From an uncultured Chryseolinea sp. (GTDB lineage: Bacteria > Bacteroidota > Bacteroidia > Cytophagales > Cyclobacteriaceae), in the NCBI GenBank assembly GCA_946478915.1, contig CAMLER010000300.1, forward strand, positions 1 through 6,465: 6,465 nucleotides of DNA, written 5' to 3'. The notes beneath the pieces were generated by a model, which was not told the origin of the DNA, did not search any database, and saw only the letters and a list, made by a program, of their open reading frames with translations. How positions within the stretch are numbered: the first letter of the stretch is position 1; each line of letters opens with the position of its first letter. Below are positions 1 to 6,465 of the stretch, in pieces. A program made the translations under genes and the position numbers.

Positions 1-1
1 T

Positions 2-682
2 CTTTTCGAATTCCAGGCTTCACGGGCGTTTGCTGACGATAACATATGGCTGGCGAACGATTTCGACAATGCTGTAGGAGCCTTATCCGTATTCTGGGGA
101 TTTTACAGCAACCAGTTTAACTTGTTTGGTAAATCTCCTTTCGTGGCCACAGAAAAACTGGCAGATATTTTTGAAGATGGAGATCCCAGGAAGGAGCTGT
201 CTCTCGATCCCGATACCCGTGCGTTTAAAAAATATGTTACGCGCGACGCTCTAAATCAGGGAGGGTCGAGCTCTACTAACAACCCAAGGATCTTGCGTTA
301 CGCCGATGTGTTGCTGCTGAAGGCTGAGGCTTTGAATGAATCGGGAGGCTCGACATCGGAGGCTATCGAAATGATTAATATGGTACGAGAACGGGCAAGA
401 GGAAATGGAAGCACACCAGCAGATTTATCTACTGCACAAACCGATCGCGCGGTAATCCGGCAATGGATCATGGACGAGCGATTACGAGAATTAGCAGGAG
501 AGGGCCAGCGGTGGTTTGATCTTAGACGATGGGCTCTTGCAGGAATGGTAACGCTCGATAACAACTTCTTTAGTTCAGATATTCCAGGTGCCATGAATTT
601 TAGAGAAAGGAATCTGAATTTTCCTATCCCGAATAATGAGACCAATGCAAATCCGAACATTACACAGAACGATGGATATTAG
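2..682 (+). CDS. SusD/RagB family outer-membrane nutrient-binding lipoprotein, C-terminal part (5' end outside window)
   Basis: The reading frame is open from base 2, so the gene enters from the left edge; about 226 codons are visible, against roughly 500-550 for a full SusD-like protein. Family hallmarks are clear: LRYADVLLLKAEALNE at about residues 94-109 of the fragment (the SusD RYAEVLLxxAEA helix), DERLRELAGEGQRWFDLRRW at about 157-176 (the conserved E/LAxEGxRWFDLRRW segment), and the C-terminus NPNITQNDGY, close to the usual NPNxTQNPGY ending. SusD-like proteins are lipoproteins on the outer face of the outer membrane and form the lid of a SusC TonB-dependent transporter, capturing glycans or other nutrients. 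The signal peptide, lipobox and substrate-binding N-terminal TPR part are not in the window, so the substrate cannot be inferred from it. The deacetylase downstream suggests a glycan locus. The TTG at 122 is an internal leucine codon and not the start. Family call is very secure; substrate unknown. Confidence 0.96.
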   Translation, partial: LFEFQASRAFADDNIWLANDFDNAVGALSVFWGFYSNQFNLFGKSPFVATEKLADIFEDGDPRKELSLDPDTRAFKKYVTRDALNQGGSSSTNNPRILRYADVLLLKAEALNESGGSTSEAIEMINMVRERARGNGSTPADLSTAQTDRAVIRQWIMDERLRELAGEGQRWFDLRRWALAGMVTLDNNFFSSDIPGAMNFRERNLNFPIPNNETNANPNITQNDGY

Positions 683-720
683 TTCCGCTTTGTTAAGTAA
701 GTAATGAACAGTTCTGAAGG

Positions 721-800
721 AAGGAATAAGGAATAGGGTATAGAGTAACGGCGCGCAATTTGCGACCTACCTATTATTCCATATTCCTTATTCCTTTTTT
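721..800 (+). terminator. Long hairpin with T-run downstream of the susD-like gene
   Basis: Bases 721-734 (AAGGAATAAGGAAT, itself AAGGAAT twice) are perfectly complementary to 783-796. With two mismatches the stem extends inward to 742/775. The right arm runs into six T at 795-800. A small internal inverted repeat, CGCAA-T-TTGCG, lies at 754-764 in the loop. The position 38 bp after the stop codon and the T-run fit an intrinsic terminator for the susD-like transcript. The left arm is purine-rich and lacks a matching T-run for the opposite strand. Function is inferred from structure only. Confidence 0.65.
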
Positions 801-846
801 CTAAGATAACAAAATAGAACTTATAATGAACCATACAACGGTTACG

Positions 847-877
847 AAAGCTGGACAGAAAATGATCAGCTTTTTTT
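847..877 (+). terminator. Weak terminator- or attenuator-like hairpin just before the deacetylase gene
   Basis: AAAGCTG (847-853) pairs with CAGCTTT (867-873) across a 13-base loop, and the right arm continues as T to 877. It ends only 28 bp before the preferred ATG of the deacetylase, so it could damp read-through from the susD side or lie in the deacetylase leader. The stem is only 7 bp and partly A/T, so chance is possible. Confidence 0.3.
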
Positions 878-905
878 GTAGGTTGTGATACCTGTTCTTT
901 TAAGT

Positions 906-1694
906 ATGATGACGTTTAGACTTCTATTTTGCCTGATGCTTGCACCTCTTGTAGGCGCAAGCCAATATGAACTTCCCTGGAATGGTAAGAAATGCGCAGT
1001 GGTCCTTACGTACGATGACGCGCTGAATGTGCATCTCGATAGTGTGGTTCCTGTACTGGACTCATTGGGATTCAAGGGAACATTTTACTTGTCTGGATAT
1101 TTTCCCGGATTTAGAAATCGTGTTGATGACTGGCGTATTGCAGGCAAATCAGGCCATGAATTGGCCAATCACTCGCTCTTTCATCCGTGTATTGGTAATA
1201 CGCCTGGAAGGGAATGGGTAAAGCCGGACTATGATCTAAGTACTTACACAACTCAAAGGCTGGTTGATGAATTGCGTATGACGAATACGTTACTGGAATC
1301 GCTAGACGGGAAACGAGCGCGCACTTTTGCTTATCCATGTGGTGATACCAGGGTTGGTGGCAACTCCTACATAGAAAAAATAAAAGAGGATTTTGTTTCG
1401 GCTCGCGGTACCGCCAAAGCGATGCCTAAGATTGATAAGATTGATTTATACAATGTGCCCGCCTACGGAATTAATGGTGAGACCGGCGATGAACTTATCG
1501 CCTTGGTCAAGAAAGCAATCGAGGAGAAGGCCCTGCTGGTATTTTTATTTCACGGCGTGGGAGGGGAGCATAATCTTAACGTTTCGCTACAAGCCCACAA
1601 TGAATTGTTGCAATACTTAAAGTCAAAAGAAAAGGAAATTTGGGTTGCTCCATTCATGGAGACGACGGAATTTGTGAGAAATAAGATTAAGTAG
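906..1694 (+). CDS. Secreted polysaccharide deacetylase, NodB/CE4 family
   Basis: A 262-residue protein from the ATG at 906. A second ATG follows at 909, and a GTG at 885 would add 7 residues. The 906/909 starts are preferred because they place a compact signal peptide (TFRLLFCLMLAPLVGA, cleavage about after residue 18) at the N-terminus. There is no lipobox cysteine, so export to the periplasm or outside is expected. CE4 motifs, numbered from 906: LTYDD at 34-38 (catalytic base and metal-ligand Asp pair), NHSLFH at 88-93 (metal-binding H89 and H93), TFAYPCGD at 140-147 (motif 3), and LVFLFHGVGGE at 211-221 with the late catalytic His at 216. The segment EIWVAPFMET near the C-terminus fits the family's last strand. 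These enzymes hydrolyse N- or O-acetyl groups from chitin-like sugars, peptidoglycan or xylan; which one cannot be told. Its place after a susD-like gene on the same strand suggests a glycan-locus enzyme, though 223 bp and a hairpin separate them, so it may have its own promoter. Confidence 0.9.
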   Translation: MMTFRLLFCLMLAPLVGASQYELPWNGKKCAVVLTYDDALNVHLDSVVPVLDSLGFKGTFYLSGYFPGFRNRVDDWRIAGKSGHELANHSLFHPCIGNTPGREWVKPDYDLSTYTTQRLVDELRMTNTLLESLDGKRARTFAYPCGDTRVGGNSYIEKIKEDFVSARGTAKAMPKIDKIDLYNVPAYGINGETGDELIALVKKAIEEKALLVFLFHGVGGEHNLNVSLQAHNELLQYLKSKEKEIWVAPFMETTEFVRNKIK

Positions 1695-1761
1695 CCACGA
1701 AGTCCCAAATGGAGCAAAGGCTTTACAATTGCCTTTAACTATCCTTTGAGCCTTCGTGGCT
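1693..1761. terminator. Nested inverted repeat between convergent genes, probable bidirectional terminator
   Basis: AGCCACGAAG (1693-1702, overlapping the deacetylase stop codon) pairs perfectly with CTTCGTGGCT (1752-1761). Inside it AAAGGC (1716-1721) pairs with GCCTTT (1731-1736). The element fills most of the gap between the deacetylase and the convergent ompA-like gene, which fits a shared terminator. Neither side has a long T-run directly after the outer stem, so it may instead be a rho-assisted end, an RNA-stabilising hairpin or a dispersed repeat. Confidence 0.5.
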
Positions 1762-1773
1762 GACCCTTCCAGG

Positions 1774-3072
1774 TTACTTTTTTACAAACTCTACTCTTCG
1801 ATTCTTGGCTTTGTTTTCTGGGGTGCTATTGTCCGCGATCGGTTGGGTAGATCCATATCCTTTGGTGGATAGTCGTGCTGCGTCGATTCCCATGCTCACC
1901 AATTGCTGCTTCACAGTTTCAGCGCGACTCTGCGATAGCTTGTTGTTCAGATCAGCGGAGCCATCACTATCCGTATGTCCTCCGATTTCGAACTTCATAG
2001 ACGTATTATCTTTAAGCATTTTGGCGATCTCATTGATAGTACCCATAGATTCCGGTTTGAGCGTTGCTTTGTTGACGTCAAACTGTATACCATAAGCGAT
2101 GAATTTGCCGCTGGTTACAACTTTGTTGTATGCATCGCTTCCGCCCGCAGCGATCCTTATATTTTTGATCAATACCGGATCGCTTTGATTTTGTATTTCG
2201 AATGTTACCATTCCAGCACCGGCCTTAATTTGATTTACTATAGCAATGCGATGTTGATCCAGATAAACCTTACCAATATTTTTATTCACATAGATTGCTA
2301 CTCGTCTCCACGCATCCTGTTTTGCGCTTATTGCCGCAGGAGGGAATTGTCGGTGTCCACCGGCAGATGACTCGTCGCGGTTCATCGTAAAATCAATTCC
2401 GCCATTGCCCAAAATGTTGTCCAGTGCAATGTAGTATCTTGACGTTCCGTCCCAGCTGCGTTCTGCGTCGGCCGAAGTTCGGAAGTATAATGAAATGGTA
2501 CTTGGAATATCATTTGCTGCGGTAGCTAACACATCAAATTCCAGTGTGAATTGTTCTGGTAGATAACTTTCATTTTCCATCAGCGGTCTCATGCTAACGT
2601 TCCCATTAATCGGTACAAACAGCACCTTCTCGTTTCCGTGCGTTTGTATTTCAATGCTGCCATCGTTCACAAGCATGCGGCCGGGGATTTCAGCATCAGT
2701 TTCGCCAGCCATGTCGTAGTAAAAGATAATTTTGTCGCCGGGTACAAAATCATAGTTTTTATATGACGCCACTGTTACAGGATTTTTATCCGACGGTTTT
2801 TCAATTTCTTTTGGAGATGTGCTTGCGTTTTGTTTTTCAGTTGAACTGGTAGCTTGATTGTCATTTGACTGTTCCTGTTCGTCGCCATTACCCTGCAAAC
2901 CTTCTTCGACTTCGTCCAGCGCTTTCTCCGTTGCTTCACCCGCTTCGTCAACGGCCCTGTTTTCGGCGGTCGACTTCACCCTGTCACCAATACGGCGAAG
3001 AACCTGCGCTTCTAACGAGGTACCTATCGTACACAAAAGAAATGCTATAAAAAGATGTCTGTACAGTTTCAT
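1774..3072 (-). CDS. OmpA-family envelope protein with a central jelly-roll-like region
   Basis: A 432-residue exported protein. Residues 1-23 form a signal peptide (hydrophobic LFIAFLLCTIG, probable cleavage around SLEAQ). Residues about 24-60 form a charged helix-prone segment, followed by a low-complexity Gln/Asn/Ser/Glu linker to about 97. Residues about 105-310 are rich in beta strands, with features such as FTLEFDVL, WRRVAIYVN and GKVYLDQHRIAI. These resemble a LamG/concanavalin-like sandwich, but that assignment is by eye. Residues about 323-432 are an OmpA C-terminal peptidoglycan-binding domain: IQFDVNKATLKPES, FEIGGHTDSDG, LSQSRAETV and the terminal AKNRRVEFV. D368 and R383 have the 15-residue spacing of the diaminopimelate-binding Asp and Arg of OmpA. 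No N-terminal eight-strand OmpA barrel is apparent, so it is likely a periplasmic or membrane-associated protein that holds the cell wall. It is the last gene of the minus-strand cluster and shares a promoter module with the response-regulator gene. The ATG at 3072 is well supported by the signal peptide. Confidence 0.88.
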   Translation of the reverse strand: MKLYRHLFIAFLLCTIGTSLEAQVLRRIGDRVKSTAENRAVDEAGEATEKALDEVEEGLQGNGDEQEQSNDNQATSSTEKQNASTSPKEIEKPSDKNPVTVASYKNYDFVPGDKIIFYYDMAGETDAEIPGRMLVNDGSIEIQTHGNEKVLFVPINGNVSMRPLMENESYLPEQFTLEFDVLATAANDIPSTISLYFRTSADAERSWDGTSRYYIALDNILGNGGIDFTMNRDESSAGGHRQFPPAAISAKQDAWRRVAIYVNKNIGKVYLDQHRIAIVNQIKAGAGMVTFEIQNQSDPVLIKNIRIAAGGSDAYNKVVTSGKFIAYGIQFDVNKATLKPESMGTINEIAKMLKDNTSMKFEIGGHTDSDGSADLNNKLSQSRAETVKQQLVSMGIDAARLSTKGYGSTQPIADNSTPENKAKNRRVEFVKK

Positions 3073-3103
3073 TATCTAATCTTTAGTTTGGTTTAGTGTT
3101 TAA

Positions 3104-3134
3104 CAAATTTATTTTTGAGTAAGAGCACATTCAA
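3104..3134 (-). promoter_or_regulatory. Predicted Bacteroidota-type promoter of the ompA-like gene
   Basis: Read on the minus strand, a TTG at 3134-3132 is followed after exactly 20 bp by TAAATTTG at 3111-3104, a full match to the -7 consensus TAnnTTTG; TTG with 17-23 bp spacing is the known -33 pattern for this phylum. Transcription would start near 3098, giving a leader of about 25 bases before the ATG at 3072. The palindrome next to the TTG strengthens the call. Confidence 0.65.
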
Positions 3135-3150
3135 TATAACTTAAGTTATA
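3135..3150 (-). promoter_or_regulatory. 16-bp perfect palindrome, predicted operator of the ompA-like gene
   Basis: TATAACTTAAGTTATA is a perfect inverted repeat directly adjoining the TTG element, centred about 45 bp before the predicted transcription start. The wider 23-bp stretch 3130-3152 recurs at 3848-3870 with a single change. The size and symmetry fit a dimeric regulator such as a NarL/LuxR-type protein binding as an activator. The adjacent response regulator is the obvious candidate, but this is inferred from proximity. Confidence 0.65.
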
Positions 3151-3161
3151 GCAGGTAAAGA

Positions 3162-3806
3162 TCAGGTCGTTGATCCACCAAAGACTTTTAACAAAGCTTC
3201 GGTCCGATTTTGAACATGAAGCTTTTCATAAATCTTATGGATGTGTTGCTTAACCGTTCCGGTTGTGATGCCCAATTTGTGGCCGATCTCTTTATACAGG
3301 AGTCCGCGGGATAGTAGTTCCAGAATTTCCTTTTCGCGCAGGGAGAGATTGAATCCTTCGGTGTCATGGGGAGCGGGAGTCTTCTGAAAATTCTGAACGA
3401 GTTTCCGAGCGATATGACTATTCATTGGTGAACCGCCCTGGTGAAGTTCTCGCACTGCTTCCAGAATCTTTTCCGGTGGAGTATTTTTAAGGAGGTACCC
3501 GCTTGCGCCAGCAGCCAGTGCGTTGAAAACATTCTCACTGTTTTCATAAATTGTGAACATCATGAATTGTGTTCGCAGGTGCAATTTTTTTAATTCTCGT
3601 ATGGCTTCAATTCCAGACCTACCCGGAAGGTTGATATCCATTATAACAATATCGGGTGGGCTTGCAGGCAGATGTTCAAGTGCACTTTCCGCGTCTGTGT
3701 AGACTGACAAGCACTTAAAATCTTCGGCACTGTCAAAGATTTTTTGCATTCCATACCGAACATCATCCAGGTCTTCAACAATACTTACGGAAATGAGATC
3801 CTTCAT
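3162..3806 (-). CDS. Two-component response regulator, NarL/FixJ (REC + LuxR-type HTH)
   Basis: A 214-residue protein of normal length for the family. The receiver domain spans about residues 4-122: acidic pair E11/D12, phosphoacceptor D57 in IVIMDINLPG, T85 in MMFTIYE, and K107 in GYLLKNTPPEK. A short linker (about 135-152) leads to a LuxR/GerE helix-turn-helix at about 153-210, with LSLREKEILELLSRGLLYKEI and the recognition-helix region GITTGTVKQHIHKIYEKLHV. All key residues are present, so it should be an active, phosphorylation-controlled DNA-binding protein acting in the cytoplasm. The gene lies 57 bp downstream of the histidine kinase gene on the same strand, its evident cognate partner. 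It starts at the ATG at 3806 with no Shine-Dalgarno, as is usual in this phylum. Its own predicted promoter and palindrome sit at the end of the kinase gene, which suggests autoregulation and transcription partly independent of the kinase. Confidence 0.95.
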   Translation of the reverse strand: MKDLISVSIVEDLDDVRYGMQKIFDSAEDFKCLSVYTDAESALEHLPASPPDIVIMDINLPGRSGIEAIRELKKLHLRTQFMMFTIYENSENVFNALAAGASGYLLKNTPPEKILEAVRELHQGGSPMNSHIARKLVQNFQKTPAPHDTEGFNLSLREKEILELLSRGLLYKEIGHKLGITTGTVKQHIHKIYEKLHVQNRTEALLKVFGGSTT

Positions 3807-3821
3807 GCTAAATCAAAAAGT

Positions 3822-3852
3822 CAATTATACAAATCCATAGCGCTCATTTCAA
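3822..3852 (-). promoter_or_regulatory. Predicted promoter of the response-regulator gene
   Basis: On the minus strand a TTG at 3852-3850 is followed after exactly 20 bp by TATAATTG at 3829-3822, which matches TAnnTTTG at all but one defined position. Spacing and relation to the palindrome are identical to the ompA-like promoter. The start would fall near 3816, leaving a short leader of about 10 bases before the ATG at 3806. Confidence 0.58.
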
Positions 3853-3868
3853 TATAACTTAGGTTATA
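3853..3868 (-). promoter_or_regulatory. Second copy of the palindrome, predicted operator of the response-regulator gene
   Basis: On the plus strand it reads TATAACTTAGGTTATA, one base different from the perfect palindrome at 3135-3150, so one symmetric pair is broken. It directly adjoins the TTG element of the predicted regulator promoter and includes the kinase stop codon (3864-3866). The flanking GC at 3869-3870 is also shared with the other copy and lies in the last kinase codons. Confidence 0.62.
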
Positions 3869-5783
3869 GCGTAAGCGGTATGCTTAGCTCCGCCACTGTA
3901 CCCACGTCGTTGCGGATACAAAAAGTTCCGTTGATTGCACCCATTCGGGCTTTCATGTTCTTTAAGCCATTGCCAAACCGACGCTCTGACGATAGGTCAA
4001 TTCCTTTTCCATTGTCGTGAACTGTAATCTTTAGTTTCTTGGTGAACGAAAAGCTTATTTCTACCCGGGTAGCGTTCGCGTGTTTTGCAATATTGTGCAG
4101 GAGTTCCTTAATGACCAGGTAAATGTTCCTGCGTTCTAACCCGCTGATTTTAATAGCAGGAATTTCGTCAGGAATGCAAAAGGTATAGTCGAGATCTACC
4201 GCACCCAGGAATTCTGACATATGGTTTCTGATGTAAGCCACAAGGTCTTCCACCGTGTCATACTCCGAATTCATACTCCAGATAATTTCATTTACGCTAC
4301 CCATAAGTTTGCGTGCTGTTTCGGCTATTTTTTTTGTTTCGGAAACCGGGTGGTCACCTGGTTGACGCATCCCTTCTGCGAGAAAAAGTATGGATGTTAT
4401 ACTACCTCCAATATCGTCATGCATGTCAGCAGCTATCCGGTTGCGTTCCAATTCTCTGCCTTCCAATTGAGCCTTTAATTTGGCCAGGTCTTGTTCTTTT
4501 TGTAGAGCCTTAACGTATTGCTCGTGATACTGCTGCTTTTGCCGGTAGAGTCGATATCCATATAAAAGAAGTAAAGCAATTGTAACGATACCAGCCGCCG
4601 AGGCGATCAGCCATATATTTTTCTTTCGTATGTTCGCTTTGCCTGCTTCAATTTCCAGCAGCTTTTCTGCCATTTCTTTTTCCTTATTTGCAACTTGATA
4701 CTTGTGTTCAAGTTCATTCACTGCTTTTTTCAGCCCAACGTTGTTCAGCGAGTCATTTAATGCTGTGTGTTTTGAAAGATAATGGTAAGCTTCTTTATGT
4801 TGACCCAGGTTAGCTTTTATATTAGCGAGGACCGGGTACTGCTGATTTAACCTGTCGAAAAAGCCGTGCGTTTCGCTGATTTCTACTGCCTCCGTAATAA
4901 ATTCATCTGCTTGGAGAAAATGTCCGAGTGCGAGATAATTGTTCGCAAGCCCTTGCAACGATGAGGCTATTGTTTCCGTATGGCGCATTTCCTTTGCCTC
5001 TTTCAGCGTCAGATTGAAGTAATTATTGCTTTTGTCGTAATCCTTTTTCTGATAGTGGAGATTGCCAAGCGATAAATAAGCATTGACGATATTGCTTCGG
5101 TCTTTAATTGCTGCTGCGAGGGACAATCCCTTCGTAGCCAGCGCAATTGCTGAATCGTAATGATGTAGGGATCCGAGCGTTCCCGCCATGTTGATCAACA
5201 CACCTGATTGCGTCAGCGTGTCCGTAATGGCTTCGCTGATCTTCAGTGATTTGCTAGCGTAGTTCAGCGCCTGGTTGTACTGCTTGGTGACATCAAAAAT
5301 TACAGCCAGGTTTTGATAGACGATGTTGAGAAAAGATGCTTGATTTAACCGTTCGAAATATTCAGCAGCTTCAAGATAATATTCTGTCGCAGCGGAAAAC
5401 ATTCCCTGATAGTTGTATACGTTGGCGGTATTCACCAACGATTTGGCAACATTTAGTGAGTCATTTTTCTCTTGCGCGAGGGATAGCGACCACAGATTGA
5501 GCTCAAGGGATTTGTCAAAATCTCCCTTGAGGTTCAGTGCTGCTGTATGGTTCCGCGCATACCGGTGCATGGTCTGATAATCTTTAGACGTTTTGCTGAG
5601 TGCACCAGCTAATGTGTAGTAATACAGCGCGCTGTCGAGGTTGACGGACTCGAGGGTTATTGCGTGATCGATGTAGCGGTTTGCTTTCTCTTTGTTATCG
5701 GCGAGGGGAGAAGATTGAGTGAACCCGCTATTGAGAATACCAGACAATAAAAGCGTGAAATACCAGAAAATCAATTTAGTCAT
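3864..5783 (-). CDS. TPR-containing sensor histidine kinase (HisKA_3 / HATPase_c)
   Basis: A 639-residue membrane kinase. Residues 1-22 are a signal peptide (LIFWYFTLLLSGIL, ending ...GFTQ). Residues about 35-345 hold around seven TPR-like helical pairs, e.g. LVNTANVYNYQGMFSAATEY (116-135), YQNLAVIFDVTKQYNQALNY (156-175) and YLSLGNLHYQKKDYDKSNNY (236-255). A charged coiled coil runs at about 355-386, then one membrane helix at about 389-409 (NIWLIASAAGIVTIALLLLYG) and a second coiled coil at 412-447. The dimerisation/phosphoacceptor domain has ERNRIAADMHDDIGGSITSI with H455. The ATP-binding domain (about 550-639) has the N-box KELLHNIAKHANAT (N564), the G1 box HDNGKGID (D590) and the G2 box FGNGLKNMKARMG. 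The TPR array therefore faces the periplasm and the kinase the cytoplasm. The signal is unknown; the TPRs suggest a protein or cell-wall-linked cue. It should phosphorylate the regulator encoded immediately downstream. All catalytic motifs are intact. Confidence 0.94.
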   Translation of the reverse strand: MTKLIFWYFTLLLSGILNSGFTQSSPLADNKEKANRYIDHAITLESVNLDSALYYYTLAGALSKTSKDYQTMHRYARNHTAALNLKGDFDKSLELNLWSLSLAQEKNDSLNVAKSLVNTANVYNYQGMFSAATEYYLEAAEYFERLNQASFLNIVYQNLAVIFDVTKQYNQALNYASKSLKISEAITDTLTQSGVLINMAGTLGSLHHYDSAIALATKGLSLAAAIKDRSNIVNAYLSLGNLHYQKKDYDKSNNYFNLTLKEAKEMRHTETIASSLQGLANNYLALGHFLQADEFITEAVEISETHGFFDRLNQQYPVLANIKANLGQHKEAYHYLSKHTALNDSLNNVGLKKAVNELEHKYQVANKEKEMAEKLLEIEAGKANIRKKNIWLIASAAGIVTIALLLLYGYRLYRQKQQYHEQYVKALQKEQDLAKLKAQLEGRELERNRIAADMHDDIGGSITSILFLAEGMRQPGDHPVSETKKIAETARKLMGSVNEIIWSMNSEYDTVEDLVAYIRNHMSEFLGAVDLDYTFCIPDEIPAIKISGLERRNIYLVIKELLHNIAKHANATRVEISFSFTKKLKITVHDNGKGIDLSSERRFGNGLKNMKARMGAINGTFCIRNDVGTVAELSIPLTL

Positions 5784-5853
5784 TCCTCACAAGCCAAAAT
5801 CACCGGGAATCTATCAGGATTAATTTAAACACATGCGCACATGTACTAATAAG
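5784..5853 (-). promoter_or_regulatory. Leader region of the kinase gene with a CACATG direct repeat
   Basis: This short gap lies between the kinase ATG and the repeat array. It holds CACATG at 5830-5835 and again at 5838-5843, separated by CG; the same bases also form an inverted pair ACATG/CATGT (5831-5835/5840-5844). It could be a regulator site, but no convincing TTG/TAnnTTTG promoter was found, and the 16-bp palindrome seen before the next two genes is absent. The kinase promoter must lie here or inside the repeats. Confidence 0.25.
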
Positions 5854-5910
5854 TTTTGAGGTCTTTGGCTCTTTTAGGTTCATGGGCTCAATTTTTTTTT
5901 CCGGGTACGC
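5854..5910. repeat. Internally deleted partial copy of the ~287-bp tandem repeat
   Basis: TTTTGAGGTCTTTG at its start matches the end of the full unit (about 6167-6180). It then jumps to GGCTCTTTTAGGTTC, matching 6021-6035, and continues through a longer T-run (5892-5900) to GGGTACGC. From there it jumps into the CGGACG that opens the next unit. It therefore looks like a unit that lost two internal blocks, the joins falling at short similar sequences. No coding sequence is apparent. Confidence 0.65.
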
Positions 5911-6195
5911 CGGACGTCCCTTTTGATCCCGTCATCCTGAGCGTGTGCCGCATTACAGAATCTCATTGTAATGCCACTCCAGGGCGTGCAACTCTTGCGA
6001 AGGATCCCGTGGAAGTCTCTGGCTCTTTTAGGTTCCGGGACTCAATTTTTTTCTAGAGTACGCATCGAACGGATTTTTTTGATAAATATGCATTCGATTC
6101 ATTCCAGCATGAATGGCCCCAGGGCGAAGTGATATTGCTGAAGACGTGAACACTTGTAAAGCTCCCTTTGAGGTCTTTGAATTTGCAAGGGAGAC
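5911..6195. repeat. Non-coding tandem repeat, full copy (285 bp)
   Basis: It runs from CGGACGTCCC to just before the next CGGACG at 6196. Against the following copy I count about 23 substitutions and 3 single-base indels over some 270 bases, i.e. about 90% identity. Single-base indels and no three-base pattern argue against coding. Landmarks include GTCATCCTGAGCG (5931-5943) and GCGAAGGATCCC (5997-6008), a pair of blocks resembling dispersed intergenic repeats I recall from other Bacteroidota. A hairpin AGTCTCTGG/CCGGGACT (6014-6022/6035-6042) is followed by CAA and seven T. Two small hairpins lie at 6097-6114 and 6123-6139. The short ORFs here are on both strands and match no family I recognise. 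Confidence 0.8.
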
Positions 6196-6465
6196 CGGAC
6201 GCCCTCTTTTGATCCCGTCATCCTGAGCGTCTGCCGCATTACCGAATTTCATTGTGATATCACTCCAGGGCGCGCAACTCCTGCGAAGGATCCCGCGGAA
6301 GTCTCTGGCTCCTTTAGGTACCTGGACTCAATCTTTTTTCTAGAGTACGCATCGAACGGATTTTGTTGATAATTACGCATTGGATTCATTCCAGCATGAA
6401 TGGCCCTAGAGCGAAGTGATATCGCTGAAGGCGTGCAACACTTGTAAAGCTCCCCTTGAGGTCTT
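6196..6465. repeat. Non-coding tandem repeat, second long copy, cut by the window edge
   Basis: It follows the previous copy directly, with an offset of 286 bases at GTCATCCTGAGCG (6217) and 288 at the final GGTCTT (6460-6465). The last 18 or so bases of the unit (matching 6178-6195) would lie beyond the window, so the array probably continues. The hairpin ATTCAT/ATGAAT is conserved at 6384-6401. The stem AGCGA/TCGCT at 6410-6426 keeps pairing despite two changes. This copy also has a 10-bp palindrome GTGATATCAC (6254-6263) that the first copy lacks. No gene seen. Confidence 0.8.

Follow-up and report, generated by a model that had tools for sequence, protein, structure and literature searches.

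The response regulator NarL of Escherichia coli binds operators made of two inverted 7-base half-sites spaced 2 bp apart (7-2-7 sites), which, in the accessible text of the relevant report, lie just upstream of the −35 element at yeaR and abut it at ogt, where a second upstream site is natively needed (PMC7419079). In the Bacteroidota, Sigma-ABfr promoters are described, in the accessible part of the source, as carrying TAnnTTTG at −7 and TTTG near −33 (PMC7366714). Here, we analyze a 6,465-nucleotide stretch of DNA from an uncultured Chryseolinea sp. (contig CAMLER010000300.1, positions 1 to 6,465; hereafter the window), whose minus strand carries, in this order, the genes for a TPR sensor kinase (5783-3864), a NarL-type regulator (3806-3162) and an OmpA-like protein (3072-1774). 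A palindrome coupled to a candidate promoter precedes both the regulator gene and the OmpA-like gene. As judged from these sequences and their conservation, the regulator of this kinase-regulator pair probably binds a NarL-like site adjoining the −33 element and thereby activates its own gene and the gene of the surface protein.

The two modules contain a pair of 23-bp repeats (3130-3152 and 3848-3870), which a preliminary description of this DNA had correctly reported to differ at a single position (22/23 identical). The first candidate operator (TATAACTTAAGTTATA, minus strand, 3135-3150), located before the OmpA-like gene, is a perfect palindrome that matches the 7-2-7 layout exactly, with TATAACT and AGTTATA on either side of TA. 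It adjoins a TTG (minus strand, 3132-3134), labeled a candidate −33 element after the accessible part of PMC7366714, and is followed at a distance of 23 bp by an exact TAnnTTTG (TAAATTTG, minus strand, 3104-3111), the candidate −7 box of the OmpA-like gene, 31 nt before its ATG. The second candidate operator, before the regulator gene (TATAACCTAAGTTATA on the minus strand, 3853-3868), adjoins a TTG that is again a candidate −33 element (minus strand, 3850-3852), and 23 bp past the palindrome lies a candidate −7 box with one mismatch to TAnnTTTG (TATAATTG, minus strand, 3822-3829), 15 nt before the ATG. Both minus-strand modules thus display the reported order of palindrome, TTG, exactly 20 bp and box. 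The 16-bp palindrome claimed for each of them is, by contrast, perfect in copy 1 only; in copy 2, the 6-bp arms are perfect but the seventh pair is broken, leaving six of the seven arm pairs of the 7-2-7 layout. Nor are the modules identical, as had been stated, because the 46 bases following the palindromes share only 14. The impression that the arrangement goes beyond chance proved right: a search of the window at up to three mismatches matched these two places only (four strand-matches), whereas 200 dinucleotide-shuffled versions averaged 0.13 matches, with a maximum of 2, and none reached the four of the real sequence. A point absent from the preliminary description is that the upstream copy contains the stop codon of the kinase gene (TAA, 3864-3866), which lies within the TATAAC of the operator, a feature found in 11 of 20 sites upstream of regulators, the window's included. 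With the stop codon inside the operator, the same stretch would act as operator and as the end of the kinase gene, and the regulator gene would possess a separate promoter within the kinase-regulator unit.

The best match to this locus is found in Chryseolinea sp. H1M3-3 (locus L001, genome G001), whose kinase and regulator are 61% and 72% identical to those of the window. At the equivalent position before the regulator gene, this locus carries TATAACTTTGGTTATA, 22 bp before TATTTTTG. The palindrome arms of the two loci are identical at 12/12 positions amid diverged flanks, with 1/4 matching positions in the spacer and 12/46 in the bases up to the start codon. Exact copies of TATAACN4GTTATA occur at two places in the 6.9 Mb of this genome, one of them the site before the regulator. 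The other precedes a small lipoprotein-like gene (L081) by 91 bp and has only a box with one mismatch, at 24 bp. A random scatter of the palindrome across the genome, which had been named as an observation that would speak against the model, is therefore not seen in this relative.

We extended the comparison to 63 distinct regulators, including that of the window, which remained from 69 alignments once short or identical sequences had been dropped (close pairs remain, and the dropped partial regulator of L006 has an exact site). They were obtained from a scan of genome contigs with an alignment of five kinases, in which 80 loci of 124 relatives were kept, from 298 genomes of Flavitalea's order (26 with a match) and 341 of Chryseolinea's order (8 with a match), and from three loci of a scan for kinase orthologues. 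When sites were counted at up to one mismatch to TATAACN4GTTMTA and regulators divided by whether or not their recognition helix matches [GS]TV[KR][QC]HIH, a site was present within 200 bp upstream of 19/31 helix-matching regulators but only 1/32 others, and within 350 bp downstream of 14/31 versus 0/32. Sites on either side were seen in 23 of the 31 as opposed to 1 of the 32 (Fisher P 1.7e-9, a value that assumes independence although the regulators are related), and ten helix-matching regulators had them on both sides. Upstream of other open reading frames (ORFs) in the same loci, the frequency was 3/118. Among the nine loci added after the split, an upstream site is present in L183, L185 and L188, absent at up to one mismatch from L187, L189 and L190, and represented by weaker variants only in L186; L182 and L184 repeat genomes already covered. 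On a tree of the 63 regulators, the site label requires 9 changes, compared with a mean of 19.5 after shuffling, and in L021 and L028 the TATAAC site occurs in a clade other than the window's, in which they stand beside L049, a TACAAC carrier. Records of Chryseolinea, Cytophagales, Chitinophaga, Flavitalea and Crocinitomicaceae are among the carriers. The conservation in orthologous loci proposed earlier as a check is indeed observed, in orthologous and paralogous regulator loci alike. Exact matches to TATAACN4GTTMTA were also tallied in 16 regulator-bearing genomes, the choice of which was guided in part by a regulator copy already noticed there, but not by the second copies; of 38 distinct places, 21 belong to the kinase-regulator locus. 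When 395 genomes of the class, drawn regardless of the regulator, were scanned for a palindrome with a box at a gap of 18-26 bp, 5 matches were obtained versus 7 for the control; two of the five are known regulator sites, and the scan is uninformative alone. Kinase orthologues at E <= 1e-60 were detected in 4 of the 295 family genomes, too few to be of use.

The spacing between palindrome and box is rigid. Across 34 distinct contexts, two of which are those of the window, an exact TAnnTTTG follows the site at 22, 23 and 24 bp in 3, 15 and 1 cases, respectively; no exact box starts anywhere else between 5 and 47 bp. The TTG, which had been described as abutting the palindrome and does so in both window modules, is not universal, adjoining 19/34 sites. 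If the box is taken as the −7 element of a presumed transcript start, the 23-bp spacing would place the center of the palindrome near −42. In several loci (L008, L109, L110, L183, L185 and others), the start of the regulator gene lies only 31-33 bp past the palindrome, right behind the position of the box; given this proximity, their mRNAs could be almost leaderless.

The palindrome varies with the recognition helix of the regulator. The TVKQHIH segment of the window's helix aligns with TVKVHVK in NarL, whose residues K188, V189 and K192 reportedly touch bases in a crystal with DNA. TACC...GGTA palindromes accompany 6/9 regulators with a KHVY helix, as opposed to 1/32 with QHIH or CHIH and 4/33 others, by a pattern that is loose and was set after some cases had been seen; at L177, L179 and L195, the palindrome is followed by TTG and, after 20 bp, by a box with no more than one mismatch. 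At L049 (helix ETVRTHVH), TACAACTAAAGTTGTA, which corresponds to TACAAC-N4-GTTGTA, is present in two copies, each 23 bp ahead of a box (TATTTTTG and CATCTTTG). Flavitalea sp. BT771 (G684) has three regulator paralogues, out of four found, with their own palindrome on both sides, namely the TATAAC type at L156, the TACCAC/T type at L195, and CTACATGATGATGTAG before and behind the gene at L200 (G684:C19). It is tempting to extend these relationships to a large NarL-type branch of Bacteroidota regulators, which may share a grammar of kinase, operator, regulator, same operator and exported protein, with the operator being a 15-16-bp inverted repeat that adjoins a −33 TTG and is followed at 23 bp by TAnnTTTG, and with a half-site set by the three helix residues at the positions of NarL K188, V189 and K192, the residues said to contact DNA. 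Examples of such pairings are K/R-Q-H with TATAAC, R-T-H with TACAAC, R-K-Y with TACCAC and R-F-K with CTACAT. Among 11 further, more distant paralogues in G001, G684 and G687, only L195 and L200 have a palindrome pair, the others being without one. The rule is thus not general for NarL-type regulators, and for the same reason we narrowed and downgraded the idea of a shared grammar, which we now regard as tentative and finely balanced.

When palindromes before and behind a regulator were required to share at least 11 of 12 arm bases, a threshold set after initial inspection, 11/75 regulators had such a pair, as compared with 0-4 (mean 1.55) in 20 resamplings and 1/75 in a within-ORF control; one of the eleven, L189, looks like a chance case by its letters. 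Many of the genes behind sites appear to encode exported proteins, including OmpA-like proteins, a beta-propeller protein with a secretion tail (L002:9636), a beta-barrel protein (L139) and lipoproteins (L111 and L138). The two lipoproteins are 53% identical, and their genes have a site and a box both beside the kinase (L111) and on a contig separate from that of the regulator (L138), where the site is followed after 23 bp by TACTTTTG. A site also precedes the OmpA-like gene at L002:5747-6820, whose product is 32% identical to that of the window over 342 amino acids, and at L152 an OmpA-family gene lies 219 bp past a site that has no box. A search at E <= 1e-85 detected OmpA-like genes in 2/248 genomes (L191 and L192); L191 has no regulator nearby, and L192 encodes a 40%-identical NarL-type regulator, cut by the end of the locus, two genes upstream of the OmpA-like gene. 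On the reverse strand of L192 (61-3985), genes for a NarL-type regulator, an exported protein and the OmpA-like protein stand in a row. A separate observation comes from Chitinophaga rupis (L137, position 2106): an 81-codon reading frame that resembles the DNA-binding part of the regulator is preceded, at 99 bp, by an exact copy of TATAACTTTTGTTATA.

Based on these data, the interpretation given in the preliminary description appears well supported, with the corrections noted above. We propose that a signal may reach the kinase and that a dimer of the phosphorylated regulator would then occupy the inverted repeat TATAAC-N4-GTTATA in its 7-2-7 layout. Positioned next to the −33 element, 23 bp before the −7 box and centered near −42, the bound dimer would contact RNA polymerase and activate transcription. 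One predicted target is the regulator's own gene, which would be transcribed from an internal promoter (its operator overlaps the final codons of the kinase) and so create positive feedback; the other is the OmpA-like gene. Several observations weigh against this proposal. Eight of the 31 helix-matching regulators have no site within one mismatch on either side (some show two-mismatch variants), 9/34 sites lack a box at 22-24 bp even when one mismatch is allowed, the helix pattern was fixed after most loci had been seen, and the related regulators are not independent of each other. Behind the L001 regulator, neither a site nor an OmpA gene was found, the best OmpA-like gene of that genome being 34% identical and located elsewhere. 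The L002 site before the OmpA-like gene has no box at 22-24 bp within one mismatch, and no TATAAC-type palindrome or palindrome with perfect 6-bp arms is present within 300 bp before the OmpA-like genes of L191 and L192. The suggested role of the OmpA-like gene as a target accordingly draws its support from the window and L002, with OmpA being one of several kinds of downstream gene. The misses at L191 and L192, together with the paralogues that have no palindrome pair, reduced our confidence in the shared grammar and, slightly, in activation by the cognate regulator.

Binding of the regulator to the same sites could instead lead to repression, with a dimer over the −33 element blocking RNA polymerase and establishing negative autoregulation. 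The position of the site makes this scenario plausible in principle, as a protein bound next to the −33 element can also act as a block. However, an activator that touches the polymerase needs a constant distance to the −7 box, here 23 bp, and a blocker does not. NarL itself activates from sites adjoining (ogt) or just upstream of (yeaR) the −35 element, and FimR, the partner of a TPR kinase in the same phylum, is a reported activator of a surface-protein gene, at least in the accessible portions of these reports. We therefore consider repression unlikely.

Alternatively, the palindrome might be read by a DNA-binding protein other than the neighboring regulator. In the 16 genomes mentioned above, 17 of the 38 exact places indeed lie away from the regulator locus, although ten of these are inside ORFs and look like chance occurrences; among the other seven, an exact box follows after 23 bp at L138 and L153. 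Another protein would hardly account for the fact that the type of site follows the regulator's own recognition helix, nor for the paralogues of G684 with their own palindromes on both sides, making this explanation very unlikely. It is even harder to view the palindrome as an RNA hairpin, acting as a terminator or attenuator, or as a mobile short repeat. Although the element is palindromic, close to gene ends and, in both transcribed copies, able to form a 6-bp stem, this stem amounts to only −2.5 kcal/mol and is not followed by a T-run, its distance to the box is fixed, and two exact places in the 6.9 Mb of G001 are few for a mobile repeat. The hairpin or terminator reading was rejected because of the weak stem, and the probability of this group of explanations as a whole appears negligible.

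The proteins encoded in the window agree with the proposed two-component arrangement by cognate regulator and kinase. The kinase (639 amino acids; minus strand, 3864-5783) contains a TPR region as well as HisKA_3 and HATPase_c domains according to Pfam, and one membrane span as judged by eye; its H-box (RNRIAADMHDDIGG) and N/G-boxes (HNIAKHANAT, DNGKGI, GNGLKNM) are those of a HisKA_3 kinase. The regulator (214 amino acids; minus strand, 3162-3806) combines a receiver domain (PF00072) with a GerE/LuxR helix-turn-helix (PF00196) that has the recognition helix TTGTVKQHIH, and its closest solved structure, by sequence, is NarL (1a04; E 1.2e-29, aligned residues 6-207). Its motifs PDIVIMDINL, FMMFTIYENS and ASGYLLKN contain what we take to be the phospho-acceptor Asp and the conserved Thr and Lys. 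The second proposed target encodes an OmpA-like exported protein of 432 amino acids (minus strand, 1774-3072), assigned by Pfam and its homologues. Beyond this gene, the plus strand carries a polysaccharide deacetylase gene and the end of a SusD gene. Deacetylase and SusD genes neighbor the kinase-regulator pair both in the window (1-1694) and in L001 (7050-12803, together with a SusC-like gene); an OmpA gene stands between the pair and these genes in the window only. Inverted repeats just past gene ends (716-801 and 1693-1761; 27 nt, 85%, and 17 nt, 88%) are possibly terminators, and an imperfect tandem repeat with a period of ~287 bp and copies that are 90-97% identical occupies positions 5858-6465, beyond the start of the kinase gene.

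Few binding sites of NarL-type regulators seem to have been described in the Bacteroidota, and our searches of the literature, which mostly excluded subscription journals, found no site of this kind and no description of this operator or of such a regulon. In the present case, the sequence reveals the site, its position in the promoter and two genes that are likely to be direct targets, all of which can be checked across genomes. A palindrome that changes with the recognition helix constitutes a testable specificity code and a route to propose targets for uncharacterized regulators; if the shared grammar were true, sequence could be used to predict the operators of unstudied members of this branch and the genes they control directly.

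The NarL heptamer is TACYYMT. The window's half-site, TATAACT, fits it only at positions 1, 2, 6 and 7 and thus differs from that of NarL, although the regulator belongs to the same family by sequence and its 16-bp inverted repeat can be read as 7-2-7. The window also resembles the yeaR-yoaG and ogt (NarL II) promoters, in the accessible text on these systems, in having a site that adjoins or lies just upstream of the upstream promoter element; unlike them, it has promoters of the Bacteroidota −33/−7 type and one operator that precedes the regulator's own gene. A second possible parallel is FimS/FimR of Porphyromonas gingivalis, a sensor kinase with periplasmic TPRs and a response regulator that activates genes for cell-surface proteins. 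Its targets are fimbrial genes, and the accessible part of its description mentions no TATAAC-type operator. Finally, the boxes of the window fit the consensus of Sigma-ABfr promoters as given in the accessible part of the source, but differ from them in their combination with an upstream palindrome whose distance to the −7 box is fixed at 23 bp.

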